A DNA stretch of 64,000 nucleotides, from assembly GCF_026130175.1 (NCBI RefSeq), contig NZ_JAIGNI010000029.1, positions 4,200 through 68,199 of the forward strand, written 5' to 3'. Made by a program: the position numbers and the translations under genes. The DNA is from Lyngbya sp. CCAP 1446/10. GTDB taxonomy: Bacteria; Cyanobacteriota; Cyanobacteriia; Cyanobacteriales; Microcoleaceae. Under the pieces are notes generated by a model. It saw only the letters and a program-made list of their open reading frames with translations. It had not been told where the DNA came from and did no database searches. Of the stretch, positions 14,449-43,887 are shown one piece after another (the first letter of the stretch is position 1; every line of letters begins with the position of its first letter).

Positions 14449-16428
14449 TTATTTTTTCGATCTTTTTTCTCCCAAGACTCGGTAGACATCAACTTTTTTA
14501 TCCCTGCCTTTTAAAGGTAAAGCTCCCCAAGATTCTACCTCAAATTTTCCCTCAAGATGCACTAAAGTTTCTTCGGCAATCAAGATGCGGCAGGTGTCCT
14601 CTTGCCGATTTTTTTCACAGCTTTCTAGGCGAGAAGCGATATTGACACTATCGCCGATTACTCCATATTCTAAACGGGTTTTACCGCCCAAACTGCCCAC
14701 CATCACAGGCCCTGTAAAAATTCCGACTCGCATTTTTGCTGGCGGCAAACCCCGATCGCTCCAACTTTGATTCAGGGCTGGTAAGCACGCACTTATAGCT
14801 ACAGCGCAAGATACGGCAAGGCGAGCATCTTCGGCAATTTCTTCGGGAGTTGTGCGGGGAATAGGCACGCCGAATACAGCCAGCATTCCATCTCCGGTAA
14901 ATTTATTAATCACCCCTTGATGTTTTTGCACTTCCTGGGCCATTGCTGATAAATATTCATTTAACCAAGGCATTACTACTTCTGGCGGTAGTTGTTCGGA
15001 AATGGTGCTAAAACCCTGCAAGTCAGTCATGATCATTGTAGCAGTGAGTCTTTGCCCTGGCAATAGCCCCGACTGGAGGAGATGGACGCGCTCTTTCCAT
15101 AGCGCATTGGCGATCGCCGGTGAAGTTTGCTGTCCTAATAATTTCATCACAATTTCTTGCTGCTGCTTTGACTGCTGGTACTTGTATGTGATGATCACTC
15201 CTAAGGTGATTAAAAATCCCAGTGTCGGCCCTGTCACAGATATCCACCCTTGTTGAGTGAATAGAAAAAATGTGAATCCCCATAATATGCCGCCAAGTGC
15301 GATCGCGCTCACCATGAAATTGAGCGTATTTTCTAGCCTCCAAGCTAAACAGCCGCCAACTCCTACCCAAACAGCGAGCCAAAGCATTTCTTGCCATTCA
15401 TCCCAAAACCAAAATAGCTTTTTACCGTCTAAAACTGCGCTGATAATTTGGCTAGTTGCTGTTGCATGAATCAATACCCCAGCCATCATGCGGTTGTCGC
15501 TGGCACTAGCGCTATAAGGGGTAGAAAAGACATCTTTTACAGTTGGAGCTGTAATCCCGATTAGCACTATTTTACCCTTCACCAAATTGGGGTCAAGTTT
15601 TCCCTCCAAAACTTGAGTTAGGGTCACGGTTTTTGCTATATTTTCAGGAGAGCGATAATTAAGCATAATTTGATAGCCTCGATCGTCAATAGTCTGATAA
15701 CCTCCTGAGTACGATCGCAGTAGCGGAAAGACTGTTTCTCCGAGCTGAATTTCTTTATTTTCTGTGACTTTTGTCTTGACTTTCTGGCTGGTTAGATAGT
15801 TAAAAGCTAGTACCATAGAAAATGAGTTAGTAGTCAATTCTTCATCGGGAAGAAACATCAAATTTCGGCGAATTATACCGTCTGGATCGATGATTAAATT
15901 GTTAAATCCTCTGCGTTTTTTGGGTATGGTGGGAGGTGGCAGAGCTCGATCGTACTCTGAGTTGCCGATGAAAGTAATGGCGATGACTTTGGGGTTTTTG
16001 AATTGAGCAGTCAATTCTGCGTTTCCCGGTTCGTAGGGGATATCGCGGATTATATCCAAACCAATCACGGTGGGTTCGAGACGCGCTATTTCGGCGATCG
16101 CTTTTGCTAAAACGCGATCGGAAATTGGCCATTTTTTTAGAGCATGAATGTCCTTTTCTGTAACTGTCACTACCAGCAACCTCGGGTCAGGCCCTGCATC
16201 GGGGCCCAACTGCACCATCAGGTCAAAAAATTTTAATTCCAAGGGCTGCAACCAACCTAAATGTCGCACTCCTAAGAGAGTTCCTGTCACGACAATGCAG
16301 GTGATGGCAAGAGGTTGTAAGTCAGCGAATGGGAAGGAGAAACTTAACTTTTTCCAACTCCAACGTTTCTCTCCCAATTGATGATCAAATATCTTAAAAA
16401 GATTGGGCATGAGAAATCTTTTAACCAT
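14449..16428 (-). CDS. CHASE2-domain class III nucleotide cyclase
   Basis: 659 residues from ATG 16428. Order: one N-terminal membrane helix (about 45-65), extracytoplasmic CHASE2 domain (about 70-330, with VIGLDIIRDIPYEPGN and GKIVLIGITAPTVKD), three membrane helices (about 345-415) and a C-terminal class III cyclase (about 465-650). Metal-binding aspartates are present in MTDLQGFST and FTGDGMLAVFG, and the transition-state Asn-Arg pair in VNIASR. The purine-recognising lysine is in INKFTGD, but the usual Asp/Thr partner position is Gly (YGVIGDS), so base specificity is uncertain. It is the first gene of a probable operon with the DUF928 gene. Confidence 0.9.
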   Translation of the reverse strand: MVKRFLMPNLFKIFDHQLGEKRWSWKKLSFSFPFADLQPLAITCIVVTGTLLGVRHLGWLQPLELKFFDLMVQLGPDAGPDPRLLVVTVTEKDIHALKKWPISDRVLAKAIAEIARLEPTVIGLDIIRDIPYEPGNAELTAQFKNPKVIAITFIGNSEYDRALPPPTIPKKRRGFNNLIIDPDGIIRRNLMFLPDEELTTNSFSMVLAFNYLTSQKVKTKVTENKEIQLGETVFPLLRSYSGGYQTIDDRGYQIMLNYRSPENIAKTVTLTQVLEGKLDPNLVKGKIVLIGITAPTVKDVFSTPYSASASDNRMMAGVLIHATATSQIISAVLDGKKLFWFWDEWQEMLWLAVWVGVGGCLAWRLENTLNFMVSAIALGGILWGFTFFLFTQQGWISVTGPTLGFLITLGVIITYKYQQSKQQQEIVMKLLGQQTSPAIANALWKERVHLLQSGLLPGQRLTATMIMTDLQGFSTISEQLPPEVVMPWLNEYLSAMAQEVQKHQGVINKFTGDGMLAVFGVPIPRTTPEEIAEDARLAVSCAVAISACLPALNQSWSDRGLPPAKMRVGIFTGPVMVGSLGGKTRLEYGVIGDSVNIASRLESCEKNRQEDTCRILIAEETLVHLEGKFEVESWGALPLKGRDKKVDVYRVLGEKRSKK

Positions 16429-16600
16429 CTTTGACAAAATCTGCTAAGTAGGCGGTCATGATTAACGGAGAAATTCCATCGGTCATAATTTCCTGACAGC
16501 AAGGAAATTAGATTTTTAGGTTTAACGTTTAGTTTATTTATGCACACCTATTTACACCTGAAGTTGTGACTAATCTCGATGATTCATGCCAAATTTTTAA

Positions 16601-27982: not shown

Positions 27983-30127
27983 TCATAAATTATGCACAAT
28001 ATTTCCCTGTTGCTTCAATACTAGCAAAGTAATGTCATCAAATACCTTTTGTTCTCCAATAAATTCTCGCAAATCATCGATCGCAGCTTGTTTAATTTCT
28101 TCGGCGCTCAAATGCCAGTTTTGAGAAACCACTTCACAGAGTCTTTCGATACCGTAGAATTTTTTGTGGATATTTCTGGCTTCGGGAATGCCGTCAGTGT
28201 AAAGCACCACGCCGTCCCCTGGCTCTAACTCTACTAAAATATGGCCAATCAAAGCTGAAATATCCTCATCTAAGCCGATGGGAAATCCTAAATCCATTGT
28301 ATCGATCCGCTCGATTTTACCGCTTTTTCTGACGACAATAGTTTCCTCATGCTGACCGCTGATGCTGATTTTCCCATCGGCATAATTTAGGATAGCCAGT
28401 GTCAGATTCTTATCTGAGTTCATGCGCTGAATATTTTGATAAATAGTGCGGTTGAGAGTATCTAAAAAGCGTACCGGATCTGATTCTCGGATTTCGTGAA
28501 GAGTGCGGACAACCGATTGAGTCATCACCATCAAAATGCCACTTTCTAGTCCGTGTCCGGTGACATCGCCAATGCAAAGCGTAACCACCCCGTCATTAAA
28601 AAGTACGTCGTAGTAATCGCCACCAACTTCATCGGCGGCTTCCATAAATCCGGCAATATCTAAATCTTTAATTGCTGCGAGTTCAGCAGGTTTGGGCAAA
28701 ATTAACTGCTGCATTTGTTTGATTAGATCGAGTTCGGAACTCATGCGCCGATTTTCCGCTTTCAGCCGCTTGTTGAGTTCTGCAATTTCTTGATTAGCTG
28801 TGGCGAGTTCTGAGGTGCGTTCGGTAACTTTATATTCGAGAGTTTCAAAGGATTCTTTTAGTTGTTGTGCCATACTATTGAAGGAATTAGCTAATGTTTC
28901 AAATTCAAAAATTTTGCTATGATTAATATTCTGATTTAGAGCGCCACCTGCGATATTTTCGGAAGCCTTAGCAATTTGTAAAATCCGGCGAGTAATCTTG
29001 TTGGCGCTGAGAAAGCCGAGTCCTATTGAGGCAATTAGAGCCGCAATACAAAGCAAGATGGTGTTGCGAGTATTGGCATAAATTTGGCTCATAAAGTCGG
29101 ATTCTGGTACTACAACTACAATTAGCCAGTTGAGACCGTACTTGTCAGTTAGGGGAGAAACTTGGAGAAATTGCCGCTGACCGTTGAGGTTTAAATTAAG
29201 TTGAACAGTTTCTTTAATATTGTCTAAGCGTTTGAAGCGATCGAGTAAATAAACTACACTTTTGCTCATCAGCGGGTTGCTGTCATCCTGTGCTTTGATC
29301 CGCTTTTGGTCTTGGCCTTTGCCGAGGGACAGAGCCTGATTTTTCAGCGAGCTAGCGATTAATTTGCCGTCCGGCTCAATGATAAATATTTGACCGGATT
29401 TACCAATGCTTAAGGTTTGCAGGAAGCCGCGAATTTGATCTAGCCCGATCCTGCAAGTCAGCACGCCAATCAGTTTGCCTTCAGGGTTATAATAGGGTTG
29501 ACTGGCATTCATTTGCAGCGTACCGTAGGCTAAATTAATGTAAACATCGCTCCAAGCAGCCTGTTTTTTTTCGACAACAACGGTGTAAAAGGGGCGGATG
29601 CGAACGTCATAATTGGGCTGAGACCTTTCAATTTCGGTCGGATTTCCATCAGCATCAAGGTTGTAGTAAATTAAGTCTCCACCTCCGGGAGTCAGTTGCT
29701 GAGCAAGCTGAGGTTTCTCAGATACATCCAGTCGGTTCACCCAACCCATTCGCAGGTACTCGCCTTTTTCGTTGGCAATTCCCGCGTGACCGATCGCACT
29801 AAACCGCAAAAGTTGCTTCCAGAGATAAGGTCTAGATCGCTCCAAATCGTCGAAATCCAACAGTCCCAGAGGTACAGCATCATGATTGAGTTGATTGACT
29901 AACGGCGGAGTTTCGATGTAGTTTTGGACGCGATCGTAAACTCTGGCACTGATGGAGTGCTGTAACTGACTGGCGAGATCGTTGACTGTCTTCTGTCCGT
30001 TTCTGTAAGAGAGATAGCCAACCCAGCCAACAGCAGCGACAATTTGCAACACAAACGGCACCACCAAGACACGACTGAGACCGATTTGGCGCCTACTGGG
30101 GGCGATCGCCCGTTTTTGAGAAACCAT
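27983..30127 (-). CDS. Cache-HAMP-PP2C (SpoIIE/RsbU-type) sensor phosphatase
   Basis: 714 residues from ATG 30127. Order: membrane helix (about 18-40), extracytoplasmic double-Cache domain (about 45-330, with DVYINLAYGTLQMNASQP), second helix (about 345-365), HAMP, coiled coil with ELNKRLKAENRRMSSELD, and PP2C phosphatase (about 480-705). Metal ligands are visible in DEVGGDYYD, GDVTGHGLESG and YTDGIPEARN. It should dephosphorylate the STAS protein of the same operon when a small ligand binds outside. It is analogous to HmpU/RsbU proteins. The gene is first in the operon, divergent from the VOC gene. Confidence 0.93.
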   Translation of the reverse strand: MVSQKRAIAPSRRQIGLSRVLVVPFVLQIVAAVGWVGYLSYRNGQKTVNDLASQLQHSISARVYDRVQNYIETPPLVNQLNHDAVPLGLLDFDDLERSRPYLWKQLLRFSAIGHAGIANEKGEYLRMGWVNRLDVSEKPQLAQQLTPGGGDLIYYNLDADGNPTEIERSQPNYDVRIRPFYTVVVEKKQAAWSDVYINLAYGTLQMNASQPYYNPEGKLIGVLTCRIGLDQIRGFLQTLSIGKSGQIFIIEPDGKLIASSLKNQALSLGKGQDQKRIKAQDDSNPLMSKSVVYLLDRFKRLDNIKETVQLNLNLNGQRQFLQVSPLTDKYGLNWLIVVVVPESDFMSQIYANTRNTILLCIAALIASIGLGFLSANKITRRILQIAKASENIAGGALNQNINHSKIFEFETLANSFNSMAQQLKESFETLEYKVTERTSELATANQEIAELNKRLKAENRRMSSELDLIKQMQQLILPKPAELAAIKDLDIAGFMEAADEVGGDYYDVLFNDGVVTLCIGDVTGHGLESGILMVMTQSVVRTLHEIRESDPVRFLDTLNRTIYQNIQRMNSDKNLTLAILNYADGKISISGQHEETIVVRKSGKIERIDTMDLGFPIGLDEDISALIGHILVELEPGDGVVLYTDGIPEARNIHKKFYGIERLCEVVSQNWHLSAEEIKQAAIDDLREFIGEQKVFDDITLLVLKQQGNIVHNL

Positions 30128-30291
30128 TGTTAAAATCACTTCTAGCGGGTTGTTTACCTTGCTTCAGCATCGTCAGCACAAGACAAAATACGATAGTTGA
30201 ATCTGCTGAAAGTATATCAAATCACCAAAAACTCTGGGCTTTTGGCGGAGTCGCTCTACAGTTATAATTAAAAATTAATTGTTTGCCAACC

Positions 30292-30651
30292 ATGAAAATT
30301 ACTCAATCCCTCCACGCCGCCCTAGTTATCTCGAATATCGAAAAATCCGAACAATTTTATAGCAAAGTTTTAGGACTGGAAAAAATCGATCGAGAATTAA
30401 AATTTCCTGGAATCTGGTATCAAATCGGCGACTTCCAACTTCATCTAATTTTAGCAGCAACAATTATACCAGATGCCATAGATTCCCAAAAATTGGGACG
30501 CAACCGACATCTGGCATTTTCTGTGGCAAACTTAGAGGAGGCAAAACAACAATTAAGAGCCAGCAACTGCCCGGTGCAAATGAGTGCGTCAGGTCGATCG
30601 GCATTATTTACCCAAGATCCCGACGGTAACATCATCGAACTCAGCGAGTAA
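30292..30651 (+). CDS. VOC (glyoxalase/dioxygenase) family protein
   Basis: 119 residues from ATG 30292, one betaalphabetabetabeta pair fold. Likely metal ligands are His in QSLHAALVIS, His in FQLHLIL, His in NRHLAFSV and Glu in GNIIELSE. It is small and dimeric in related proteins; reactions range from glyoxalase to dioxygenase or antibiotic binding, so no substrate is claimed. Only three bases separate it from the recombinase-like gene downstream, so the two are probably cotranscribed. Confidence 0.9.
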   Translation: MKITQSLHAALVISNIEKSEQFYSKVLGLEKIDRELKFPGIWYQIGDFQLHLILAATIIPDAIDSQKLGRNRHLAFSVANLEEAKQQLRASNCPVQMSASGRSALFTQDPDGNIIELSE

Positions 30652-30654
30652 CAG

Positions 30655-31935
30655 ATGAAAATCATCGCCTATTCATACAGCGAACCGCTGCTAGAATCCA
30701 CGCCAGCAGCCGAAATTTGGGGCCAAGAGGTCGATCGCACCTATCAAGACTTAGGAGGGCGCCAGCAACTCCAGCAACTCCTCAAAGACTGCCAAACAGA
30801 ACCAGTCAAATACCTGTTAATTCAGCGCCTTGAAGAACTCGGCGACACAGTACAGCAAGTGTGCACCCACCTAGAACAACTAGAAACCCTCGGCATCCAA
30901 CTAATTGTCACAGACGAAAAACAAACCGAAAACAGAGCAAACTTACTCAAACTCCTCGCAGAAGTCCAGCGCAGCCAACAAAGCCGCAGCATTCGCAAAG
31001 GACACGCCCGCAACCGCATCAAATCCCTTCCCCCACCCGGAAAAGCCCCCTACGGTTATCGGCGCGGCAAAGATAAATATGCGATCGACAAAACCGCCTC
31101 CCCCGCCGTCAAAGACTTTTTTGAACACTTCCTCATCTACGGTTCCCTGCGCGGTTCCGTGCGCCATTTAGCCAAGAAATACAACAAAAAAATCTCCGTC
31201 AGCACAGGCCGCCGCTGGCTGACAAATCCCGCCTACCGAGGCGATTTAGAATATCAAAACGGCCAAGTAATTTCTAACACCCACGTCCCGATAATTTCCA
31301 GAGAAGAAGCCGCCCAAATAGACAGATTGCTGCGGCGCAACCGTAGCCTTGCTCCCCGCAGCGCCAGCGCCCCGCGTTCCCTCGCAGGATTAGCAATTTG
31401 CGCCGAGTGCAAATCGCCCATGACAGTTGCCAAAGTCACAGCCTACCGCAAAGAAAAAGAATACCTTTATTTGCGACCGATTAACTGTCTCCAGCAGCCT
31501 AAATGCAGCGGCATTTCCTACGAAGAAGTATTGCAATCAACCATAGCAGGAATTTGTCGGGATTTGCCCAATGCTGTTGCTGGCTTGCAAATGCCGGAGA
31601 TGAAGGGAATTAAAGCAGGAATTGCCGGGGCTATCTGCTCGAAACAACAAATCTTAGAGCAACTTCCCGCCATGATTGAAAGCGGCATTTTAGACACAGA
31701 AACAGCAGAATTGAGAGCCTACAAAATCCGCACAGAAATTGCAGAACTCCAAAGCAAATTAGCGCAACTGCCGCCAGTGAATTTGCGAGAAACAGCGCAA
31801 ACTGTTTCTCTTCCCCAATTTTGGCTGGACTTGTCGGAATCGGAACGCAGGTTCTATTTTCGAGAGTTTATCGATCGCATTGAGATAGTCCGGGAAAAAT
31901 CCCAGGTAAAACTGCAAATTATTTTCATTTTTTAA
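30655..31935 (+). CDS. Large serine-recombinase-like protein lacking catalytic residues
   Basis: 426 residues with the three parts of large serine recombinases: resolvase-like N-terminal domain (1-120), recombinase domain (about 125-235, GKAPYGYRRG and LTNPAYRGDLEYQNGQVISN), and a zinc ribbon (CAECK, then cysteines in NCLQQPKCSG) with a coiled coil. In ungapped alignment with gamma-delta resolvase (YARVS, LDRLGR) the catalytic Ser10 is Glu10, Arg8 is Tyr8, and Arg68 and Arg71 are Glu and Asp (LEELGD). It should bind DNA but not cut it by the known chemistry. Similar XisF-labelled proteins occur in many cyanobacteria, as I recall. No attachment sites seen. Confidence 0.85.
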   Translation: MKIIAYSYSEPLLESTPAAEIWGQEVDRTYQDLGGRQQLQQLLKDCQTEPVKYLLIQRLEELGDTVQQVCTHLEQLETLGIQLIVTDEKQTENRANLLKLLAEVQRSQQSRSIRKGHARNRIKSLPPPGKAPYGYRRGKDKYAIDKTASPAVKDFFEHFLIYGSLRGSVRHLAKKYNKKISVSTGRRWLTNPAYRGDLEYQNGQVISNTHVPIISREEAAQIDRLLRRNRSLAPRSASAPRSLAGLAICAECKSPMTVAKVTAYRKEKEYLYLRPINCLQQPKCSGISYEEVLQSTIAGICRDLPNAVAGLQMPEMKGIKAGIAGAICSKQQILEQLPAMIESGILDTETAELRAYKIRTEIAELQSKLAQLPPVNLRETAQTVSLPQFWLDLSESERRFYFREFIDRIEIVREKSQVKLQIIFIF

Positions 31936-32020: not shown

Positions 32021-33178
32021 TTAGCTTGAAATAACTTTTTTAGCCTTGAGCCAATAGGCGATCATATCTCCTTTCCCTTTAAGCAGAATTGCGCCCCGTT
32101 CCTCAAATAAATATCCATCTTTTAACTGTTCGTAAACAGCCGCAGTAACTTGAATATACCCCGGCAATCCTTGACATTCCATCCGAGAAGCAACATTAAC
32201 AGTATCCCCCCACAAGTCATAGATAAATTTTTTAGTGCCAATTACGCCAGCAACTACTGGGCCTGTATGAATCCCAATCCGAATTTGAAGTGGTTCGCCT
32301 GTGTCGGTTTGAAAATCTGCGATCGCCTCCTGCATATCCAAAGCCATATTTGCGATCGCCTCAGCATGATCTGCCCTCGGCACCGGCAACCCCCCCGCTA
32401 CCATATAAGCATCTCCAATTGTTTTAATTTTCTCCAAACCGTGTTTTTCAGTTAATTGGTCAAACTTGGAAAAAATCTTATTGAGAAAATCCACTAATTC
32501 TAAGGGTGAAATTCTCGCAGCAAGAGACGTAAAATCGACAATATCAGCAAAGAGGACTGTTGCTGACTCAAACCTCTCAGCAGGAGAACCCTCGCCCTTT
32601 TTCAAATTTTCAACAATCGCTGCTGGTAAAATATTCAGCAATAAATGATCCGACTTTTTTTGAGCAAGCCGTAAAGCTAGCTCAACCCCCTGCCGCTCTT
32701 TAATTTCGTTTTGCAAACGTTCGACAAGTCCTTCTAATTGCTTCGTTTGCTCTTGAAGTAGCTTTTGCTGACTTTGAATTGTCAACTGACTTGCCACTCG
32801 TGCCAATACTTCTTTATCTTGAAAAGGTTTAGTAATATAGTCAACTGCTCCCACATCAAAGGCTTTCACCTTATCTAAAACGTCATCTAAGGCGCTTAAA
32901 AAAATCACTGGAATGGAACTGGTTTTTGGTGAAGCTTTCAACTGTGCACACACCTCATATCCATTCATCTCTGGCATCATCACGTCCAGCAGAATTAGAG
33001 TCGGCGGAAACTCCTGCACTGTAGCGATCGCCCTTTGTCCGTTCAGCGCTTTACGAACCTGATACCCTTGTGTGGTCAAAATTGTAGATAAAAGCCGCAC
33101 GTTATCTGGCTTATCATCAACTATTAGAATGTTGGCGGAAATTATAGGACATTGATTGCTGTTCATGTGAGCGTTCAC
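32021..33178 (-). CDS. Response regulator with class III adenylate cyclase output
   Basis: 385 residues. Receiver domain (16-135) with acidic pair Asp21-Asp22, phosphoacceptor Asp65 in LILLDVMMPEMNG, and lysine in ITKPFQD. A coiled coil (about 140-185) leads to the class III cyclase (about 190-380). Metal aspartates are in FADIVDFTSL and TIGDAYM; the adenine-specifying pair is Lys in KIKTIGD and Asp in YDLWGDTVNVASR, as in mammalian adenylyl cyclase C2; Asn and Arg of the transition state are present. Product should be cAMP. It is last in an operon with the two ethylene-receptor-like kinases (24 bp gap), so they likely phosphorylate it. Confidence 0.93.
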   Translation of the reverse strand: MNAHMNSNQCPIISANILIVDDKPDNVRLLSTILTTQGYQVRKALNGQRAIATVQEFPPTLILLDVMMPEMNGYEVCAQLKASPKTSSIPVIFLSALDDVLDKVKAFDVGAVDYITKPFQDKEVLARVASQLTIQSQQKLLQEQTKQLEGLVERLQNEIKERQGVELALRLAQKKSDHLLLNILPAAIVENLKKGEGSPAERFESATVLFADIVDFTSLAARISPLELVDFLNKIFSKFDQLTEKHGLEKIKTIGDAYMVAGGLPVPRADHAEAIANMALDMQEAIADFQTDTGEPLQIRIGIHTGPVVAGVIGTKKFIYDLWGDTVNVASRMECQGLPGYIQVTAAVYEQLKDGYLFEERGAILLKGKGDMIAYWLKAKKVISS

Positions 33179-33202
33179 GGTATTTTTTTAATACAAAATA
33201 TA

Positions 33203-36200
33203 TTAACACTGACGTGCCGTAACTGCCGATTTAGCTAGCTCTATAATATCGTCAAATAGGAAATTATGCGCTAAATTAGTTAAATATTGTGAGGCAGAAG
33301 CAAATTCTCTAGGCATTTCCTCTATCAAGCTAAAAATTTTATCATCGCAACATTCATAAGCAGCATTATATATCTTCTCCACCCACTCAACAGGCATTTG
33401 ACAGAGTTGTGATTCTACAGATTGATTGCTAAAAACTCCGCTAATTTCGCTTTCATTTTCTAGTTTTGTATCAACAGGTTCCTCGTAAATGTAGCGTACT
33501 CCTAAAAGTTCTGCGATTTTTGCAAATAATATTTTTGCCTCAAAAGGTTTACGCATGAAATCATTGCAACCTGCTGCCAAAATAGTTTTTCTATCCTCTT
33601 CAAAAGCGCTCGCAGTGAGAGCAACAATCACCGTTTCTTTTCCAAGAGGATGAGATTTAATGTGTGTGGTGGCTTCATAGCCATTCATCACCGGCATTTG
33701 CATATCCATCCAAATCAGGTGTGGCTGCCAATCCTCCCATATAGCAACAGCCTCTTGACCATTTCTAGCTTCTCGCACGACTAGGCCTAATGGTGACAAT
33801 AATCTATCTATAACTAGACAATTATCGGCGCGATCGTCAACCACCAAAATGCGATATTCTGGTTGATTGGGTTCTAAACCAATTACTTTTTTATGTGGTT
33901 TTAGCATTTTAACATCGGTAGGAGCGGCTAGGCTGATTTGAATATCAAAGGCAAATTTACTGCCCAACCCAATCATACTGTTTACAGTAATATCTCCTCC
34001 CATCATTTCTACAAATTTGCGACTAATTGGTAAGCCTAACCCAGTCCCCTGTTGAGATTGCTGACCTGTTTTTGTTTGCTCAAAGGGTGCAAATAACTTA
34101 TCCATTTCTTCTGCGGCAATGCCAAGCCCAGTATCTTCAATTTCAAACTGAAGGCGTAAAAATACCGGGCGAATGGAATTCGCGTCTACACAATCAAAGT
34201 CCGCCTGCGGGGACTGATCGCAACCCGCGTCGGCGGGTTTTGTTTGTGTGCCCGTAAACTCTGCGGTTTTAACCGCCAAGCTTTCTTCTACCTTCATTTT
34301 CACTCGCAAGGTAACGCTACCCGTCTCTGTAAACTTGATCGCATTTCCTAATAAATTAATCAAAACTTGGCGCAATTTGCCTTCATCTCCATTGACAAAG
34401 TGCGGTACGCCATCAGCCACTTCAAAAATTAGCTGCAATTTTTGAGATTTTGCTTTCAAGCGGAACATCTCTTCCAAGGTTTCTAGTAAGCGGATTAAAT
34501 TGAAACTGCTTTCATTAAGCTGACTTCTGCCTGCTTCAATTTTAGACATTTCCAAAATGTCATTAATTAGCGACAGCAAATGTTCCCCAGCGCGATTAAT
34601 AATTTCTAGGTGTTGCTGGTGTTGATTGTTGAGAGATGAATCGCGCACCATCACCTGACTAAATCCCAGAATTGCATTCAAGGGAGTACGCAATTCGTGG
34701 CTCATAGAAGAAAGAAATTCACTTTTGGCGAGGTTAGCAGCATCAGCAACCACAACAGCTTTTTGCAGCGCTACTTCTGCCAACTTGCGCTCGGTAATTT
34801 CAGTTTTCGCTTGTTCAAACAGGGTGCATTGCTGGATGGCGATCGCTAGCTGTACGGAAATTTGCTTGAGAGATTCTATCTCAGAAGAGTGCCACTGCCT
34901 TTGACTGCGGCAGTGATGAGCAATGAGTAGCCCCCATAATTTTTCACCTTGCAAAATGGGAACCACGAGGTTAGCTTTAATTTCAAACTGGCTGAGTAAA
35001 TTAATGTGGCACTCTGAAATACCAGCCGTATAAATATTATCGATCGCGCGAATGTGTCCCTGCTCGTAAACAGAAACGTAACGTTCCCGAAAACAAGGGT
35101 CATTAATGTCAATTCCGTGAATTGGCATCACACCCCCTGCTACCGATTCGACAGCTATAAATCCGCTCCAATCTGGGTTGAATTGGTAAATAACTGTCCT
35201 ATCAGTTGACAAAAACTGGCGCACTTCTTCCACAGCCATTGTCATAACTTCTTCTAGGTTAAGAGAAGAGCGAATCCGCTCTTGAATGGAATTCACCAGT
35301 CGCTCCCTTTTTAGTTGCTGCTGCAAAGCTGCTTCTGCCTGTTTGCGAGCAGTAATATCTACTCCATAACCAACACACTCCACAGGTATGCCAGCAGCAT
35401 CTTTGACCAACTTAACTTCATCGTAAATCCAGCGATAACTACCGTCTTTGTGCCGTTCGCGGTATTCGTAGGAAATCCATTCTTTTTCCAATATCTGAGC
35501 GAATGCAGTATCTACAGTTTTTCGATCTTCCGGGTGAACGAGGCTGCGCCAATCAAGGGAACCTTCAAAAAAATCTTGCGCTTCGTAGCCAATCAATGAA
35601 ATAATGTTTTCGCTGACAAATGTTACGTCATAATTTTCCCCTAATTTGCAGCTAAAAATAACTGCTGGAGTAGTAGCCAATAAATATTGCAAGCGTTCGG
35701 TAACAGAGCGCAAATTTAACTCGGCTTGCTGGCGCTCGCGAGCTTCCATTGCTAAGCAAGTATTGGTTTCTGTCAACTGTGCGGTACGCTCTTGCACTTT
35801 AAGTTCTAAATCTTCATAGGCGCAGCGCAGAGCTAATTCTGCCTCTTCGCGCACGGCGATTTCCCGCTGTAATTTGATATTAATTACTTCTAATTCTTGA
35901 GGGGTTTTTAATGATAAAAACTGGGGGATTAGCCCGAACAGCGTTCCAGCAGTGTAGCAGGAAACGAGGCCAGTAATTCCTTTTTCAATCCCCGACAGCC
36001 AATAAGCGGAATGCCACAGCGTCCAAATGTCTATCAAGTGACCAGTACCGCAAAGAACAATAAATGTACTAAATAAAGCAAATATTCCTGAGAAGGGAAC
36101 GTCGCGTCGCTTCAAAATAAAATAAATTAGCATCGCCGGAATTGAATAGTAGGCGAGCGCGATTAAAAAGTCGCCGGTTACGTGCAGCCACACCAAAGGC

Positions 36201-36274
36201 GTTTGCCACAGATAGCAGTGACCGTGCGGCATATACTGAGTTGGAGAAAAAATATTTTTGAGTAATTCCCACAT
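33203..36274 (-). CDS. Hybrid histidine kinase with ethylene-binding domain and DXCF cyanobacteriochrome GAF (UirS/SynEtr1-like)
   Basis: 1023 residues. Residues 15-125 are three membrane helices matching the plant ETR1 ethylene domain, with Asp35, Tyr42, Ile45-Pro46, Cys75 and His79 at the ETR1 positions 25, 32, 35-36, 65 and 69 (Cu(I) and ethylene site). A PAS domain (about 195-310) follows. The GAF (about 325-490) has DPCF with Cys394 and SECH with canonical Cys422-His423, exactly 28 apart, plus IKANLVVPI, so it should carry a bilin. HisKA His526, HATPase (GTGLGLP) and receiver Asp857 complete it. A repeat-derived insertion lies in the HATPase domain. Synechocystis UirS has the same sensor order but no receiver. 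Confidence 0.93.
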   Translation of the reverse strand: MWELLKNIFSPTQYMPHGHCYLWQTPLVWLHVTGDFLIALAYYSIPAMLIYFILKRRDVPFSGIFALFSTFIVLCGTGHLIDIWTLWHSAYWLSGIEKGITGLVSCYTAGTLFGLIPQFLSLKTPQELEVINIKLQREIAVREEAELALRCAYEDLELKVQERTAQLTETNTCLAMEARERQQAELNLRSVTERLQYLLATTPAVIFSCKLGENYDVTFVSENIISLIGYEAQDFFEGSLDWRSLVHPEDRKTVDTAFAQILEKEWISYEYRERHKDGSYRWIYDEVKLVKDAAGIPVECVGYGVDITARKQAEAALQQQLKRERLVNSIQERIRSSLNLEEVMTMAVEEVRQFLSTDRTVIYQFNPDWSGFIAVESVAGGVMPIHGIDINDPCFRERYVSVYEQGHIRAIDNIYTAGISECHINLLSQFEIKANLVVPILQGEKLWGLLIAHHCRSQRQWHSSEIESLKQISVQLAIAIQQCTLFEQAKTEITERKLAEVALQKAVVVADAANLAKSEFLSSMSHELRTPLNAILGFSQVMVRDSSLNNQHQQHLEIINRAGEHLLSLINDILEMSKIEAGRSQLNESSFNLIRLLETLEEMFRLKAKSQKLQLIFEVADGVPHFVNGDEGKLRQVLINLLGNAIKFTETGSVTLRVKMKVEESLAVKTAEFTGTQTKPADAGCDQSPQADFDCVDANSIRPVFLRLQFEIEDTGLGIAAEEMDKLFAPFEQTKTGQQSQQGTGLGLPISRKFVEMMGGDITVNSMIGLGSKFAFDIQISLAAPTDVKMLKPHKKVIGLEPNQPEYRILVVDDRADNCLVIDRLLSPLGLVVREARNGQEAVAIWEDWQPHLIWMDMQMPVMNGYEATTHIKSHPLGKETVIVALTASAFEEDRKTILAAGCNDFMRKPFEAKILFAKIAELLGVRYIYEEPVDTKLENESEISGVFSNQSVESQLCQMPVEWVEKIYNAAYECCDDKIFSLIEEMPREFASASQYLTNLAHNFLFDDIIELAKSAVTARQC
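34198..34277. repeat. Dispersed palindromic repeat inserted in frame in the hybrid kinase gene
   Basis: Three hairpins in a row: AGTCC..GGACT (34198-34215), AACCCGC..GCGGGTT (34222-34239) followed by TTGTTTGTGTG, and GCGGTT-TT-AACCGC (34263-34276). The middle part matches 23047-23077; the last matches 51723-51742. It encodes about 27 residues inside the kinase ATPase domain without breaking the frame. Confidence 0.8.
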
Positions 36275-36383
36275 AATACTTGTTATTGGCAGATAATATG
36301 GATTTGATGATGCCTAAGTTAGGCAAAAAATAAAATAAACCGAAAATTGTATGTAGCTGGATTCAGCATTATTTATTAACGCC

Positions 36384-37937
36384 TCAACCCAGCTTGTTCA
36401 TAACAGCTTGCTTCTGCACTAGGTGGCGCTCGCCAAATTGCGATCGCCAAGGAATTTCAATGATAAACTCAGTACCTCTCCCAACCTCGGAAGTGCAGCG
36501 CAAATAACCTTCATGGGCTTGAATAATCTGATAAGAAATCGCCAAACCCAGCCCGGTACCAGCACCGATAGGTTTCGTTGTATAAAATGGATCGTAAATT
36601 TTAGCGATCGCATCATAATCTATGCCAGTGCCATTATCAGCAATGTGAATCTGCACCCACTTGCCATCAACTAAAAGCGTGCGGATGCGAATTTTTAGCA
36701 GTGGGCAATGGGCATTTTGTAAGTTGTCAGATAAATTATTTTCCCAATAGCCGTTGGTCAAATCTCCCTGCTGTGCCATCTGTTCTAAAGCATCAATAGC
36801 ATTAGAACAAATATTCATAAATACTTGGTTAAGCTGCCCAGCGTAGCATTCCAATAGTGGCAAATCTCCATACTCTTTAATCACTTGAATCGGCGGACGG
36901 TTTGGTTGTTCTTTCAAGCGGTGCTGCAAAATCATTAAAGTGCTATCGAGTCCTTCATGAATATTTACCTTTTTCATGTCGGCTTCGTCTAACCGGGAGA
37001 AAGTTCGTAAAGATTTAACAATTTCCCTAATTCGCTCTGCTCCAATTCTGATTGAACCAAAAAGTTTTTGCAAGTCTTTTAAAATAAAATCGAGTTCGAT
37101 AGTGTGAATTTTGTCTGCAATTTCCGGCGCAGGAGTGGGGTAATAAACTTGATAAGCCTTAATCAATTCCAAAATATCTTTAATGTATTCCTCCGCCGGA
37201 ATCAGATTGCCATAAATGAAGTTAACAGGGTTATTGATTTCGTGAGCAACGCCAGCTACCATTTGTCCCAAAGAGGACATTTTTTCAGTTTGCACAAGTT
37301 GAGTTTGGGCGCCTTTGAGTTGTTGCAGAGTCTTTTCTAGCTGCTGAGTTTGTTCGAGCAGTTTAGCTTCCGAGTGCCGCAATGAATTTTCAGCCAAGGA
37401 GCGATCGCGATTTTCTTGTAGCAAAAGTTCATTGGTTGATTCTAAAGCCAGCGTCCTCTCCAGAACCCGTTTTTCCAATTCCAGCATTAATTCTGAGAGT
37501 GCTTCCTGAGCTTGTTTGCGATCGCCAACCTCATTTTGTAAAGCCAAATTGGCCGCCGCCAATTGATCGGGACTGGGGATAGCCAAGATTTTTGGGATTA
37601 GTTCCACCAGCACTGCTGCTGTACATAGCGAAATCAGCGCCGTAATCCCTTTAAGAAAACCAGAGAACCAATAATTAGGATGCCACAGCGTCCATATTTC
37701 CATAATATGGGTAATGCCGCAGCAGACAATAAAAGAGCCAAACAACATGAAAATCCAGTCAAAAGGCACGTCTTTCCGCTTCTTGACAATATAAATCAGC
37801 GTGATGGGTATCAAAAAATAAGCGGTGGCAATCAAGGCATCGGACAAAATGTGCAGCCCCACTAATCCAGGCTTCCACAAGTAGCAATGACCGTGAGGAA
37901 TAAAATAATTTGGGAACATTTTATGAACCATTTGCAT
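36384..37937 (-). CDS. Histidine kinase with ethylene-binding domain
   Basis: 517 residues, first gene of the operon. The N-terminal ethylene-binding domain has three membrane helices with all ligand residues of ETR1: Asp33, Tyr40, Ile43-Pro44, Cys73 and His77 (VCCGITHIMEIWT). Like the downstream kinase it starts with a conserved PHGHCYLW segment. A coiled coil (about 125-215) leads directly to the transmitter with His232 in VAHEINNPVNF, N-box NICSNAIDAL, ADNGTGID and GTGLGLA. There is no PAS, GAF or receiver, so this is an ethylene-only input that could share the downstream receiver and cyclase. 109 bp separate it from the next gene. Confidence 0.93.
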   Translation of the reverse strand: MQMVHKMFPNYFIPHGHCYLWKPGLVGLHILSDALIATAYFLIPITLIYIVKKRKDVPFDWIFMLFGSFIVCCGITHIMEIWTLWHPNYWFSGFLKGITALISLCTAAVLVELIPKILAIPSPDQLAAANLALQNEVGDRKQAQEALSELMLELEKRVLERTLALESTNELLLQENRDRSLAENSLRHSEAKLLEQTQQLEKTLQQLKGAQTQLVQTEKMSSLGQMVAGVAHEINNPVNFIYGNLIPAEEYIKDILELIKAYQVYYPTPAPEIADKIHTIELDFILKDLQKLFGSIRIGAERIREIVKSLRTFSRLDEADMKKVNIHEGLDSTLMILQHRLKEQPNRPPIQVIKEYGDLPLLECYAGQLNQVFMNICSNAIDALEQMAQQGDLTNGYWENNLSDNLQNAHCPLLKIRIRTLLVDGKWVQIHIADNGTGIDYDAIAKIYDPFYTTKPIGAGTGLGLAISYQIIQAHEGYLRCTSEVGRGTEFIIEIPWRSQFGERHLVQKQAVMNKLG

Positions 37938-38526: not shown

Positions 38527-38674
38527 GTGTCAACTTAAGTCTAGATCCCCCCTAGCCCCCCTTAAGAAGGGGGGAACCGGAAGTTATCAAAGTCCCCCTT
38601 CTTAAGGGGGATTTAGGGAGATCTCGCCAGAGGATAAAAGCGAGATGTCTCAGGTTTCATACTTAAGTTGACAC
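38527..38674. mobile_element. MITE-like palindromic element, copy 1
   Basis: Perfect 14 bp terminal inverted repeats GTGTCAACTTAAGT / ACTTAAGTTGACAC enclose a core with GATCCCCCCTAGCCCCCCTT, AAGGGGGGAA and TCAAAGTCCCCC..GGGGGATTTAGGG. The direct repeat GGCGCTCAG flanks it (38513-38521 and 38682-38690). The core is shared with 44023-44128 and 55584-55721. No coding capacity. Confidence 0.8.
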
Positions 38675-38864
38675 GCCTTTGGGCGCTCAGTGACCAGTAA
38701 ATCCTTTATTGATATTGGTGCGCCGCGGTGAGATTTAACGGATTTGACCTGTTATTCCCTGAGAAATGTAGGTACAGGCTGGCGTCGCAATCCAATAGGC
38801 GATCGGCTTTACAGTCAATCATAAGTGATAATATCAACGATATACTTACTTATAATTGCAAATT

Positions 38865-40187
38865 ATGACGATAGATGAGGTAATACAGCTAACTCGTGCC
38901 CGATCGCAAAAAGACTTACATCCCGTACAAGAAATCATACTCCGCCAAGTTTGGGAAGGAAAGACTTATACAAGCATCGCATCTGCCTCTCATTACGGAG
39001 AGCATTACCTGAGAAACATCGCCTCCGGTTTGTGGCAATTTCTCTCTGAAATCTTGCAGACACCTATTAGTAAATCAAATTTTCGCTCCTCTCTAGAATC
39101 GCGTTCCTTGACTGCGAAGGAACAAAAATTAATTGAAGAATTCACCCGCAGCCAATGCCTAGTAACACCTTTAGAATATCCCGGCTCTCCCGTACCCCTC
39201 GGTTCGCCATTTTATATTCCTCACCCGCTAATTCAAAAACTCGCGTATCAAGAAATTGCCAAACCTGGAAGTGTTCTGCGGATTAAAGCTCCCAGGAAGA
39301 TGGGTAAAAGTTCCCTCCTGCTACGGATTTTAGATCGCGCTAATTCTCTTGGCTGCCGAACTGTAAGTTTGGATTTTCAGCAAGCCGAGGAAGCTGTTTT
39401 AGACAACCTAGATAAATTTTTACGGTGGTTTTGTGCGAACATCAGCCGTCACCTAGAATTGCCACCTCTATTAGATGATTATTGGGATGAAGATATGGGT
39501 AGCAAAGTAAGCTGTACCATTTATTTGCAACAATATATATTAACTGAAATTAATAGCCCTCTGGTTTTAGCTTTAAATGAAGTCAATAGAATTTTTGAGT
39601 ATCCCAAAATTGCTAGAGAATTTTTGCCACTGCTGCGAAGCTGGCATGAAGAAGCAAAGCGGACTGAAACTTTGGGAAAACTGCGGTTAATCGTCCTTCA
39701 TTCCACAGAAATTTATATTCCTTTAAAGCTCACTGAATCGCCTTTTAATGTCGGTTTGCCGCTGCAATTGCCCTATTTTACAGAAGAGCAGATACTTGCT
39801 TTAGCGCAGCGTTACGGACTGGATTGGACAGATAGCCCCGATGCCAAGCGACTGATGGCAATGGTGGGGGGACATCCTTATCTGGTACGGCTCGCTTTTT
39901 ACCACCTCTGTCAAAAGGCTATAACGCTAGATCAGCTTCTACAAGAAGCTCCCACAATAGGAGGAATTTATAAAGATTACTTGCGGAGTTTTTGGGTGAC
40001 ATTGCAAGAAGATCCCGAACTCGCAATTGCACTTAAACAAGTCGTAAAATCTGAGCGTGGCGTGGAATTAGATCCGATAGTAGCTTCTAAATTAGTTAGT
40101 ATGGGTCTGATTAATATCGATAACAACCGCTGTATGCTGAGCTGCGAGTTGTATCGCCTGTATTTTGGTTCCCACAATTTTATTTAA
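38865..40187 (+). CDS. AAA-like (AAA_35) protein with vMAP-type N-terminal domain and altered Walker B
   Basis: 440 residues from ATG 38865. Residues 1-70 (MTIDEVIQLTRARSQKDLHP, EGKTYTSIASASHYGEHYLR) are the HTH-like N-terminal domain found in vWA-MoxR-associated and related cyanobacterial conflict-type proteins. The AAA_35 NTPase spans about 105-390: Walker A APRKMGKSS with Lys148, and a Walker B position reading LNEVN (Asn238, Glu239, Asn241), where relatives usually have LDEVD. A winged-helix end (MGLINIDNNRCMLSCELYRL) follows. It lies 115 bp upstream of the WD40 STAND gene on the same strand, so the two may act together. Confidence 0.85.
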   Translation: MTIDEVIQLTRARSQKDLHPVQEIILRQVWEGKTYTSIASASHYGEHYLRNIASGLWQFLSEILQTPISKSNFRSSLESRSLTAKEQKLIEEFTRSQCLVTPLEYPGSPVPLGSPFYIPHPLIQKLAYQEIAKPGSVLRIKAPRKMGKSSLLLRILDRANSLGCRTVSLDFQQAEEAVLDNLDKFLRWFCANISRHLELPPLLDDYWDEDMGSKVSCTIYLQQYILTEINSPLVLALNEVNRIFEYPKIAREFLPLLRSWHEEAKRTETLGKLRLIVLHSTEIYIPLKLTESPFNVGLPLQLPYFTEEQILALAQRYGLDWTDSPDAKRLMAMVGGHPYLVRLAFYHLCQKAITLDQLLQEAPTIGGIYKDYLRSFWVTLQEDPELAIALKQVVKSERGVELDPIVASKLVSMGLINIDNNRCMLSCELYRLYFGSHNFI

Positions 40188-40302
40188 ATCGAGGTTTTAG
40201 AGTTTATTTGTGTAAGTTATATTAGAATCAAGCGATCGCACCACATCCTCACCTCTCAATAGATTCATTACATACTCACCTTTAAACCAACCTATAAACG
40301 GC

Positions 40303-43300
40303 ATGACCAAAATTACATACCAAATTGGCGGCAGTCTCGCCAATGATGCACCTACTTATGTAGTGCGACAAGCAGATTCCGAACTCTATCAAGCCTTAAA
40401 AAACGGCGAGTTTTGTTACGTCCTCAACTCGCGACAAATGGGAAAATCTTCCCTATTAGTCCGCACCCAACACCGATTACAAGCAGAAGGCTGCCAATGC
40501 AGCACCATTGACATGACCCGCATTGGCAGCGAAAATATTACCCCTTTACAATGGTATAAAGGCATAGTTGGGGAACTTTGGCGCAGCTTCAATCTCTTAG
40601 GAAAGATGAACTTAAAAACCTGGTGGCGCGACGAAGAAGATATCTCCCTGCTTCAGAGATTGAGTAATTTTATTGAAGATATCCTACTCGTCAAATTTCC
40701 TCAAGATAGAATTTTTATATTTATTGATGAAATTGACAGTATTCTCGGTCTAGATTTCTCCGTTGATGATTTTTTTGCCTTAATCCGGTTTTGCTACAAT
40801 CAACGAGCGATTAATCCAGAATATAATCGCATTTGTTTTGCAATCTTTGGCGTAGCGACACCGAGCGATTTAATTGCTGATAAAAAACGCACACCTTTTA
40901 ATATTGGTCGTGCTATAGATTTACGGGGTTTTGAACTGCACGAAGCCCAGCCATTAGTAGAGGGATTGGTAAGTAGAGTGAGTAATCCTCAAACAGTTAT
41001 CAAACAGATATTGTTTTGGACTTCAGGACAGCCATTTTTAACGCAAAAGCTGTGTAATTTAGCTTATAGAGCCAGCCGGGAAGCGGCGCGAGGCTTAGTA
41101 AATATTCCACCAGGAACGGAGGCATTTTGGGTGGATAATTTAGTGCAAAAAAATATTGTTACTAAGTGGGAATCCCAAGATGAACCAGAGCATTTAAAAA
41201 CAATACGCGATCGCATCCTTCGTAACGAACAGCGTGCTGGTAGATTACTCGGTATCTACCAACAAATTTTGGAATCAGAATCATTTTCAATGGTACTAGG
41301 AGGTATTTTAACCGATGATTCTCCAGAACAAATCGAACTATTATTATCAGGATTAGTAGTTAAAGAGAATGGTTATTTGCAGGTAAAAAACAGGATTTAT
41401 GCTGAAGTTTTTAACCTTGAATGGGTAGAGAAACAATTATGGCAACTGCGCCCTTACTCGCAAACCTTCGATGCTTGGATTGCTTCACAACAAACAGATT
41501 ATTCGCGGCTATTGCGCGGGCAAGCTTTAAAAGATGCCCAAATCTGGGCGCAAGAAAAAAGCTTGAGCAACCTAGACTATCAATTTTTAGCTGCTAGTGC
41601 CGAACTAGACAGGCGAGAAGTTCAACAAGCTTTAGAAGCAGAACGCACTAAAGAAGTTGAAGCACGACTAATAGAGGAACATAAGCGATTAATTCAAGAG
41701 AAAACAGCAGCCAAACGACAGAGAAGATTACTATTTGCAGTTAGTATTGCACTGCTGCTTGCCTGTGGTTTAGGAGTAACAAGTTATTTTCAATACCGAC
41801 GTGCAGCTATTAGCGAACGCGAAGCAAGAATTAGCGAAATTCAAGCGCTGGTTTCTTCTTCTGAGGGACTGTTTGCCTCTAATCGCCGATTGGATGCACT
41901 AATAGAAGCGATTAAAGCTAAACGCAGACTGCAAAAGTTAGGCAATACAGACACAAATATTGAACATCAAGTTATCAATGTATTGCGGCAAGCAGTTTAT
42001 GAAGGCGATGAATACAACCGTTTATCGGGACATAAAGCGGCGGTGATGACTGTCGATATTAGTCCTGACAGTAAGCTAATTGCCTCTGGAAGTGTAGATA
42101 AAACTATCAAACTGTGGGGGAGGGATGGTACAGAAGTGGCAACCCTCAAAGGTCATCAGGCGATCGTGAGATCGGTTAAATTTAGCCCTGATGGTCAGTT
42201 AATTGCTTCTGGAAGTGATGATGGTACTGTGAAATTATGGCAAAAAGACGGCACGTTGTTAAAAACTTTTCAAGGTCACAGTGCTGGCATTTGGCTAGTA
42301 GCATTTAGCCCCGATGGTCAAACTATTGCCTCTGCTAGTGTGGACACAACTGTAAAACTTTGGCAAAAAGACGGAAGTTTGCTGAAAACTCTCCAAGGTC
42401 ATACTGCTGGGGTATCCTCAGTAGCATTTAGTCCCGATGGTGAAACGATTGCCTCTGCCAGTGGAGACAAAACGGTAAAACTTTGGCACAAAAACGGCAC
42501 TTTGCTAAGAACTCTTCAGGGTCATACTGCTGTGGTATCCTCAGTAGCGTTTAGTCCCGATGGTCAAACTATTGCCTCTGCCAGTGGAGACAAAACGATA
42601 AAACTTTGGAATAAAAACGGCACTTTGCTAAGAACTTTTCAGGGTCATACTGCTGTAATATCAGCCGTTGTGTTTAGTCCAGACGGTCAAATTATCGCCT
42701 CAGCAAGTCGAGATAAAACGGTAAAAGTTTGGAATATTGACGGCACAGAATTGATGACATTTAGAGGTCATAGTGCTGGGATTTGGGGGATAGCTTGGAG
42801 TCCTGACGGCAGCTTTATTGCTTCGGCGGGTGCAGAAAATAGCGTCATATTATGGCGAAGTCAAAATCCATTGCGTAAGATGATTACTGCACATAAAGCT
42901 GGGATTTGGGCTTTAGATATTAGTGCTGATAGTTCTACAATTGCCACAGGTAGCGAGGATGGCACGACTAAAATTTGGAGTCGGCAAGGTAAATTGGTAG
43001 CAACTTTGAGCGAACAAGATGCTGCGATTTATGCAGTTGCTCTGAGTCACGACAATCAGTTAATTGCTTTTGCGAAAAACGATAATATTGTGAATATCTG
43101 GGATCGTAAAGGCGTTTTGCGGGAAAGTTTTGTAGGTCATAGCGCTAGACTGACTGGATTAGCTTTCAGTCCTGACGATCGCACGATCGCATCCGCAAGT
43201 CAAGATAATACGATTAAGCTTTGGCGGCATAACAGCATTTGTAGGGGGGAAACATCCGCCGCCAAATCTCTAGGCAACACCAATAGATGCGCCCCTATCA

Positions 43301-43887
43301 CCCTCATAGGACATCATACTCCTATTTGGCAGGTAGTATTTAGCCCCGACGGTCAATTAATTGCCTCCGCAGGGGGAGATGGTACTGTAAAGTTATGGAA
43401 GCTTGATGGTACGTTAGCGAGAACTTTCCGAGGTCATCAAGCTGCGGTATGGAGAGTGGCATTTAGCCCTGACGGTAAGATGGTCGCTTCTGGCAGTGGG
43501 GATAATACGATTAAGCTTTGGACTATTGATGGCAAGTTGTTAAGAACTATTGAAGGTCATCAAGCTGCGGTATGGGGAGTGGCGTTTAGTCCTGATGGTC
43601 AAATGATTGCTTCTGGCAGTGTGGATAATACAGTAAAGCTTTGGAAACTTGACGGTACGGAATTAACAACTCTCAGAGGTCACAGTGCGGCGATTAGGGG
43701 AGTGGCTTATAGTTCTGATGGGACGTTTGTGGCTTCCGTTAGTGAGGATAACACGCTGATTCTGTGGAATGTGCAGCGAATTCTGAGTCTGGATTTATGG
43801 AGTTATGGGTGCGATCGCGTGGGGGATTATTTGCGGGTGAATGCGGAGGTGGAAAAGGGCGATCGCTTATTGTGCTCGCGCAACTGA
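40303..43887 (+). CDS. STAND-type AAA-like NTPase with a membrane helix and 14 WD40 repeats
   Basis: 1194 residues. AAA_35 NTPase (about 10-390) with Walker A SRQMGKSS (Lys48) and intact Walker B FIDEID (Asp142, Glu143). A linker and coiled coil (about 410-470) lead to one membrane helix (about 473-492, [20 protein letters not shown]), then more helices and 14 WD40 repeats (from about 572), which fits two seven-bladed propellers. Repeats 3-6 are very similar, a sign of recent amplification. A short insertion ([14 protein letters not shown]) sits between blades 10 and 11. Such proteins are thought to sense ligands through the propeller and signal by oligomerising; the partner is unknown. Confidence 0.93.

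Follow-up and report, generated by a model that had tools for sequence, protein, structure and literature searches.

A GeiEtr2-type ethylene-receptor-like kinase adjoins a receiver-class III cyclase in the Microcoleus group and may connect ethylene and light to cAMP

We analysed a stretch of 64,000 nucleotides from Lyngbya sp. CCAP 1446/10 (RefSeq assembly GCF_026130175.1, contig NZ_JAIGNI010000029.1, positions 4,200 to 68,199 of the forward strand; hereafter the window), whose host we take to be a filamentous Microcoleus-group cyanobacterium. Among the genomes compared below, the window's own is G000, where the window lies on contig C93. Three minus-strand open reading frames (ORFs), transcribed in the order K1, K2 and CYC, encode two ethylene-receptor-like histidine kinases (HKs) and a receiver (REC) protein with a class III nucleotidyl cyclase domain (Table 1). 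An earlier reading of the same DNA (the original prediction) had described them as an operon through which ethylene and light would change cyclic AMP (cAMP), and an ORF check reproduced its coordinates, common strand and gaps of 109 and 24 bp. The short gaps contain no terminator-like match on the coding strand. However, the promoter and terminator scans say little, being near or below chance level: the window gave 9 promoter-like sites where shuffled sequence averaged 15.3, and 9 terminators compared with 6.6. No Rfam match and, with ARAGORN, no tRNA was found anywhere in the window.

Table 1. Features of the K1-K2-CYC locus and its upstream neighbours, in window coordinates.
Feature	Position	Strand	Basis or remark
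K1, ETR1_N-HisKA/HATPase histidine kinase, 517 aa, without receiver, without GAF	36384..37937	-	Pfam, ORF, residues
K1 ETR1_N membrane domain, residues 25-120	37578..37865	-	Pfam
K1-K2 gap, 109 bp	36275..36383	-	no terminator-like match on coding strand
K2, ETR1_N-PAS-cyanobacteriochrome GAF-HisKA-HATPase-REC hybrid kinase, 1023 aa	33203..36274	-
K2 ETR1_N membrane domain, residues 27-122	35909..36196	-	Pfam; seven binding residues
K2 PAS_3, residues 218-303	35366..35623	-	Pfam
K2 GAF, cyanobacteriochrome type, DPCF (C394) and ECH (C422, H423)	34835..35260	-
K2 HisKA, phospho-His526	34529..34729	-	Pfam, alignment
K2 HATPase_c, best stretch, residues 707-778	33941..34156	-	Pfam
K2 own receiver, Asp857	33515..33850	-	Pfam, alignment
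K2-CYC gap, 24 bp	33179..33202	-	no terminator-like match on coding strand
CYC, REC-class III nucleotidyl cyclase, 385 aa; start probably at ATG 33166	32021..33178	-
CYC receiver, D21 D22 D65 S95 K117	32795..33130	-	Pfam, alignment
CYC class III catalytic domain, D212/D256, K252/D321, N328, R332	32045..32581	-	Pfam, alignment
AAA_35 NTPase gene, divergent from K1	38856..40187	+	Pfam; recurrent neighbour of ETR1-kinase loci
AAA-WD40 gene after AAA_35	40303..43887	+

Both kinases had been said to begin with an ETR1-type domain, and Pfam matched ETR1_N in K1 (E 2.1e-41, 140.5 bits) and K2 (E 9.2e-39, 132.1 bits) well above the curated cut-off of 27. The ligand sets proposed for K1 (Asp33, Tyr40, Ile43-Pro44, Cys73 and His77) and K2 (Asp35, Tyr42, Ile45-Pro46, Cys75 and His79) were numbered exactly, and with I70 and I72, present besides, each kinase holds all seven residues that we take to be those of the ethylene site of AtETR1. 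The phospho-site of K1 is H232. The number of residues needed for ethylene binding by AtETR1 is seven according to PMC6682694. By analogy with AtETR1 and with SynEtr1 of Synechocystis PCC 6803, K1 and K2 would bind ethylene. A search of solved structures with the K2 ETR1 domain returned no relative, its sole match having E 0.39.

For the K2 GAF domain, the best solved-structure matches were GAF domains of bilin photoreceptors, the named ones including RcaE and phytochromes. It has the canonical C422-H423 together with C394 in a DPCF motif, as in cyanobacteriochromes of the DXCF type; a second cysteine within a DXCF motif is reported from some cyanobacteriochromes (PMC11284453). Photochemistry in K2 is expected by analogy with these proteins. 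The light input of the original prediction is thereby narrowed to K2, because K1 has no light-sensor domain.

Pfam likewise matched both halves of the claimed receiver-class III cyclase in CYC (Response_reg, 1.2e-30; Guanylate_cyc, 2.4e-67). A Lys/Asp pair is the rule in adenylate-type cyclases. The residue set of a class III adenylate cyclase is complete in CYC, comprising what we take to be two metal-binding aspartates (212 and 256), the adenine-type K252/D321 pair and the N328/R332 pair, and CYC is predicted to be an adenylate rather than a guanylate cyclase. The phosphoacceptor had been named as Asp65, which is correct when counted from the GTG start, but an alignment of orthologues favours the ATG four codons downstream, in which case the second gap is 36 bp. 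Among the 25 NCBIfam matches listed for each of K1, K2 and CYC, no family exceeded its cut-off. A different class III cyclase of 662 aa, whose N-terminal part looks CHASE2-like by eye, lies elsewhere in the window (14449-16437, -).

The closest described counterpart of K2 is GeiEtr2 of Geitlerinema sp. PCC 7105 (Baaleninema simplex), to which it is 43% identical over residues 1-1011 with the same ETR1-PAS-GAF-HK-REC layout. The gene downstream of GeiEtr2 overlaps it by 11 bp and encodes a REC-GGDEF-EAL protein; in the receiver region, this protein and CYC share 51% identity across 168 residues. K2 and CYC thus repeat the GeiEtr2-type arrangement of such a kinase followed by a REC-output gene, but the outputs differ: GGDEF-EAL, for cyclic di-GMP (c-di-GMP), beside GeiEtr2, and Guanylate_cyc, for cAMP, in CYC. 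The window locus also differs in having a second ETR1 kinase, K1.

To check the K2-CYC pairing, we searched 39 genomes including the window's own, 24 of them in the same genus group. Eighteen of the 24 genus genomes had a CYC orthologue (at least 84% identity), and in all 18 it lay directly behind K2 (in G016 the contig ends inside CYC). A set of named genomes, which overlaps the 39, gave 78 loci from the best 80 of 108 stretches encoding a relative, and 21 of these loci (L100-L120) contained a close K2 orthologue. CYC stood behind K2 in 20 of the 21, whole in 19 and cut by the contig end in L111; L107 ends before CYC. The gaps printed for these loci ranged from -7 to 183 bp, measured from the first possible start codon. 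In L118 and L119 (USR001), which have one 208-aa flanking ORF in common, the flanking genes differ from those of the window on both sides and K2-CYC is retained. Adjacency in 18 of 18 genus genomes, and in L118 and L119 despite changed flanks, is not due to chance; K2 with CYC is the conserved core and most likely the functional pair. L117 (Kamptonema) was also considered as a two-flank change and ruled out: its downstream flank differs, but the upstream AAA genes and K1 match those of the window.

The place of K1 is less constant. It adjoins K2 in nine of the 18 genus loci with CYC (G000, G002, G005, G012, G013, G014, G016, G019 and G020). Because L102 and L104 retain remnants of it, and L119 a piece of 26 residues, K1 was probably an early member that has been lost more than once. 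It is the optional member of the cluster and most likely supplies an optional input.

Functional residues, the phospho-sites among them, are invariant in orthologues wherever the alignment column is present. The seven ETR1 residues are invariant in 21 of 21 K2 rows holding the column (22 rows in all) and in 9 of 9 K1 rows, both bilin cysteines of K2 in 22 of 22 rows, and the key sites of CYC in 20 of 20 or 21 of 21 rows holding the column. Columns are missing from L107 and L111, which a contig end cuts, from L114, whose frame is partial, and from L119, whose frame is broken. The cluster is under purifying selection, with ratios of nonsynonymous to synonymous substitution (dN/dS) of 0.08-0.48 across all domains and pairs printed for nine hand-picked named loci.

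We surveyed ETR1 kinases more broadly by comparing residues 1-320 of K2 with 386 genomes of the phylum, 69 of which had a match at E 1e-45. No more than five candidates were scored per genome, making the resulting list of 134 rows (18 in the genus) a lower bound that leans toward K2-like genes. Of the other 116 rows, 114 were fetched and annotated with our own domain queries, and the last two lie inside a locus already fetched. K2-type genes, with ETR1 and further on HK, REC and a C-terminal domain, accounted for 21 of the 114, and the following gene bore a REC domain in 17 of these 21. The outputs were REC-GGDEF-EAL in eight cases, REC-HK in six, REC without a recognised output in two and REC-cyclase in one; elsewhere a further hybrid kinase followed once and no REC gene three times. 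The single REC-cyclase case, L198, belongs to a different genus within the family of the window genome and has the complete K1-K2-CYC set (checked with Pfam). Receptors of one kind thus occur with GGDEF-EAL, kinase or cyclase partners, which suggests that the window locus is a known receptor kind wired to an unusual output, cAMP.

Other arrangements were also found in the survey. In a different family, L253 (4040-7499, -) encodes an ETR1-HK protein (436 aa), a single-receiver protein (153 aa) whose gene overlaps the preceding one, and a REC-GAF-Guanylate_cyc protein, as checked with Pfam. It was rejected as an instance of the window's gene order because the ETR1 cluster sits between the AAA_35 and AAA-WD40 genes; it is a related, not identical, neighbourhood and a second ETR1 kinase-regulator-REC-GAF-cyclase cluster. 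ETR1 and GGDEF or GGDEF-EAL were joined in one chain in 6 of the 114 by domain queries, and all three cases checked with Pfam were confirmed. These three single proteins with ETR1_N and GGDEF or GGDEF-EAL lie at L199:3501-5507, L256:3516-5408 and L291:6000-8507, and their domain content makes them candidate one-component ethylene-to-c-di-GMP receptors. The window genome has eight ETR1_N matches. Contig C115 carries a divergent ETR1_N kinase (L195:3950-8853, -; E 1.1e-21, matching from profile position 11) that adjoins genes for an FTR1 permease and a multicopper oxidase, which suggests a role connected with metal rather than ethylene.

Phylogenies were built for kinases (33 rows) and receivers (46 rows). 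In the kinase tree, the kinases linked to REC-CYC proteins fall on one side of a branch supported at 89/87 and in 90% of 200 bootstrap trees. The kinase of L099 belongs to this side as well; it lacks ETR1 but has a kinase-REC part of 48% identity, and it too is followed by REC-CYC. The receivers of ETR1-linked CYC proteins form one group (98/97) in the receiver tree, a result compatible both with an exchange of the output domain behind a retained receiver and with recruitment of a whole REC-cyclase gene.

Across the intergenic region from K1, the AAA_35 and AAA-WD40 genes recur beside ETR1 kinases. In 15 of the 114 survey loci, the fetched stretch contained an AAA_35 homologue, in most cases together with an AAA-WD40 homologue. 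In 14 of the 15, AAA_35 lies upstream on the opposite strand, and in L253 the ETR1 cluster stands between both genes. These 15 genomes represent eight families (f1, f4, f8, f9, f18, f24, f25 and f26), with four each in f9 and f18. From the 6 strong and 8 weaker AAA_35 matches in the window genome, less than one chance placement would be expected in 114 loci, a rough figure given that the genomes are related. We know of no connection between AAA_35 proteins and ethylene signalling, and no search aimed at one was made. Besides the window (38856-43887, +), AAA_35, mostly with AAA-WD40, was observed in L101, L112, L115, L116, L117, L121, L134, L153, L198, L201-L203, L207-L209, L227-L229, L234, L235, L241, L245 and L253. 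The intergenic region between K1 and AAA_35 also contains a MITE-like inverted repeat of 31 nt (84% complementary, 20-nt spacer) at 38543-38624.

Our preferred interpretation, to which we give a probability of roughly 55%, is that the cluster is a two-component system in which ethylene and light act through K2 and the CYC receiver on cAMP. Ethylene at the ETR1_N membrane domain and light at the GAF domain would set the autophosphorylation of K2 at His526, and the phosphate would pass directly from His to Asp65 of CYC, altering the level of cAMP. Where present, K1 would serve as a second kinase for the same receiver, with an ethylene domain and no light domain. A CRP-type receptor may read out the signal. 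In CRP, the cassette that contacts cAMP follows a GE...PRS rule. The window genome has 15 cNMP_binding matches, and the two CRP-like proteins that we checked (L182 and L184) both have cNMP_binding and HTH_Crp_2 domains and a GE...PRS stretch resembling this cassette, making cAMP binding putative.

The sign of the response can be proposed from two described systems. SynEtr1 autophosphorylates on histidine and then transfers the phosphate to its regulator, with indirect evidence that ethylene inhibits it (PMC11819568). In Anabaena, the phytochrome-like kinase AphC purportedly phosphorylates and activates CyaC, placing cAMP under light control (PMC4284465). If ethylene also lowers kinase activity here and phosphorylation activates the cyclase, cAMP would fall with ethylene. 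At the level of sequence and comparison, the ethylene- and light-to-cAMP proposal is upheld by the binding residues, light cysteines, phospho-sites, adenylate-type cyclase and K2-CYC linkage, but its pair of kinases gives way to a functional pair that is most likely K2 and CYC, with K1 optional.

Several observations weigh against this interpretation. CYC is absent from six of the 24 genus genomes (G003, which is 74% complete, G007, G008, G010, G017 and G023), and nine of the 18 loci in the genus lack K1. Outside the genus, only L198 and L253 among the 114 survey loci have a class III cyclase as one of the two following genes; seven of the 114 stop short of the second gene. With 36 Guanylate_cyc matches in the window genome, some weak, CYC may be one of many cyclases feeding one cAMP pool. 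As K2 has its own receiver, the phosphate may go there first. L141, with no partner seen, and the window genome's kinase on contig C67, with a divergent REC-GGDEF-EAL neighbour, both fall among the REC-CYC-linked kinases in the kinase tree, so that the support from it is moderate, and the receiver tree sets the CYC receiver neither among nor apart from the receivers of other ETR1 partners. Finally, L119:10001-12573 (Oscillatoriales cyanobacterium USR001) has a break in the K2 frame behind the ETR1 part, the remainder and CYC being open, which may mean that ethylene input was lost in one lineage or may be a sequencing error.

We also weighed three other explanations. K2 could be a sensor of light (and redox or copper) whose ETR1_N domain binds copper or acts as a membrane anchor, with ethylene not a physiological input and a light-to-cAMP route like that of AphC and CyaC reported in Anabaena (PMC4284465). 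The bilin cysteines of K2 are invariant to the same degree as its ETR1 residues, and the window genome does place another ETR1_N kinase beside FTR1 and multicopper-oxidase genes. However, every K1 and K2 row holding the column retains all seven ethylene-binding residues, K1 keeps them though it has no light domain, and SynEtr1, which also combines ETR1 with a cyanobacteriochrome, binds ethylene (PMC6682694). We regard this explanation as unlikely, though a serious contender.

Slightly less probable still is that K2 and CYC are neighbours without direct phosphotransfer, with K2 signalling by way of its own receiver or a different regulator, and some other kinase driving CYC. The hybrid architecture of K2 would fit, as would the receiver tree, which does not mark the CYC receiver as kin of other ETR1-partner receivers. 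Adjacency in 18 of 18 genus genomes, and amid changed flanks in L118 and L119, argues otherwise, as does the REC-CYC behind the ETR1-less L099 kinase. An old, degenerating cluster of little function, retained by chance in close species, could account for the K1 pieces in L102, L104 and L119 and the broken K2 frame in L119, but every domain that was compared has a dN/dS far under 1 and active-site residues are invariant, which makes it very improbable.

The proposed K2-CYC circuit resembles several known systems in part. To our knowledge, SynEtr1 ends in its kinase domain without a receiver, CyaC includes a kinase domain of its own and AphC lacks an ETR1 domain. Like K2, SynEtr1 (UirS) combines an ETR1 domain with a two-cysteine cyanobacteriochrome on a histidine kinase (PMC3546692, PMC6682694, PMC7076178), but in the SynEtr1/UirS-UirR-LsiR system the partner is an AraC-type regulator rather than a cyclase. 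UirR is, as these sources present it, the sole output of a cyanobacterial ethylene receptor to have been worked out. The matches listed for CYC and the scanned neighbours (30283-31935, 27983-30139 and 38856-43887) included no AraC match and so no adjacent regulator of the UirS-UirR type. AphC-CyaC of Anabaena PCC 7120 shares with our proposal a light-sensing kinase thought to activate an adenylate cyclase by phosphorylation, but it lacks the ethylene input. AzoEtr1-AzoRR of Azospirillum brasilense likewise places a bacterial ethylene receptor kinase beside a response regulator gene, but unlike at the window locus, the sections of PMC11819568 consulted describe neither a cyclase output nor a cyanobacteriochrome.

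The original prediction knew of no ethylene-to-cAMP circuit, and we found no description of ethylene control of cAMP in a cyanobacterium among the top-ranked results in the open-access literature, which is weak evidence. An ethylene receptor beside a second-messenger gene is not wholly new, however, because GeiEtr2 has been reported as grouped with a gene bearing a diguanylate cyclase domain (Lacey et al. 2019, PMC6682694). With even odds, in our estimation, the K2-CYC pair is the first ethylene-to-cAMP circuit, in which the REC partner of a GeiEtr2-type ethylene/light receptor in the Microcoleus group is a class III cyclase and the same receptor kind acts on c-di-GMP in some other cyanobacteria. 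The ETR1 locus would then be a plug-in site for second-messenger outputs, accompanied in several families by the AAA_35/AAA-WD40 pair. Plant ethylene receptors are thought to be of cyanobacterial descent. With sensor and kinase retained and the REC-linked output varying among c-di-GMP enzymes, kinases and an adenylate cyclase, this receptor kind would make ethylene control in bacteria a testable question. Since gliding and pili in cyanobacteria are reported to be under cAMP control (PMC4284465), the circuit would link the motility of filamentous, mat-forming cyanobacteria to a gaseous signal.

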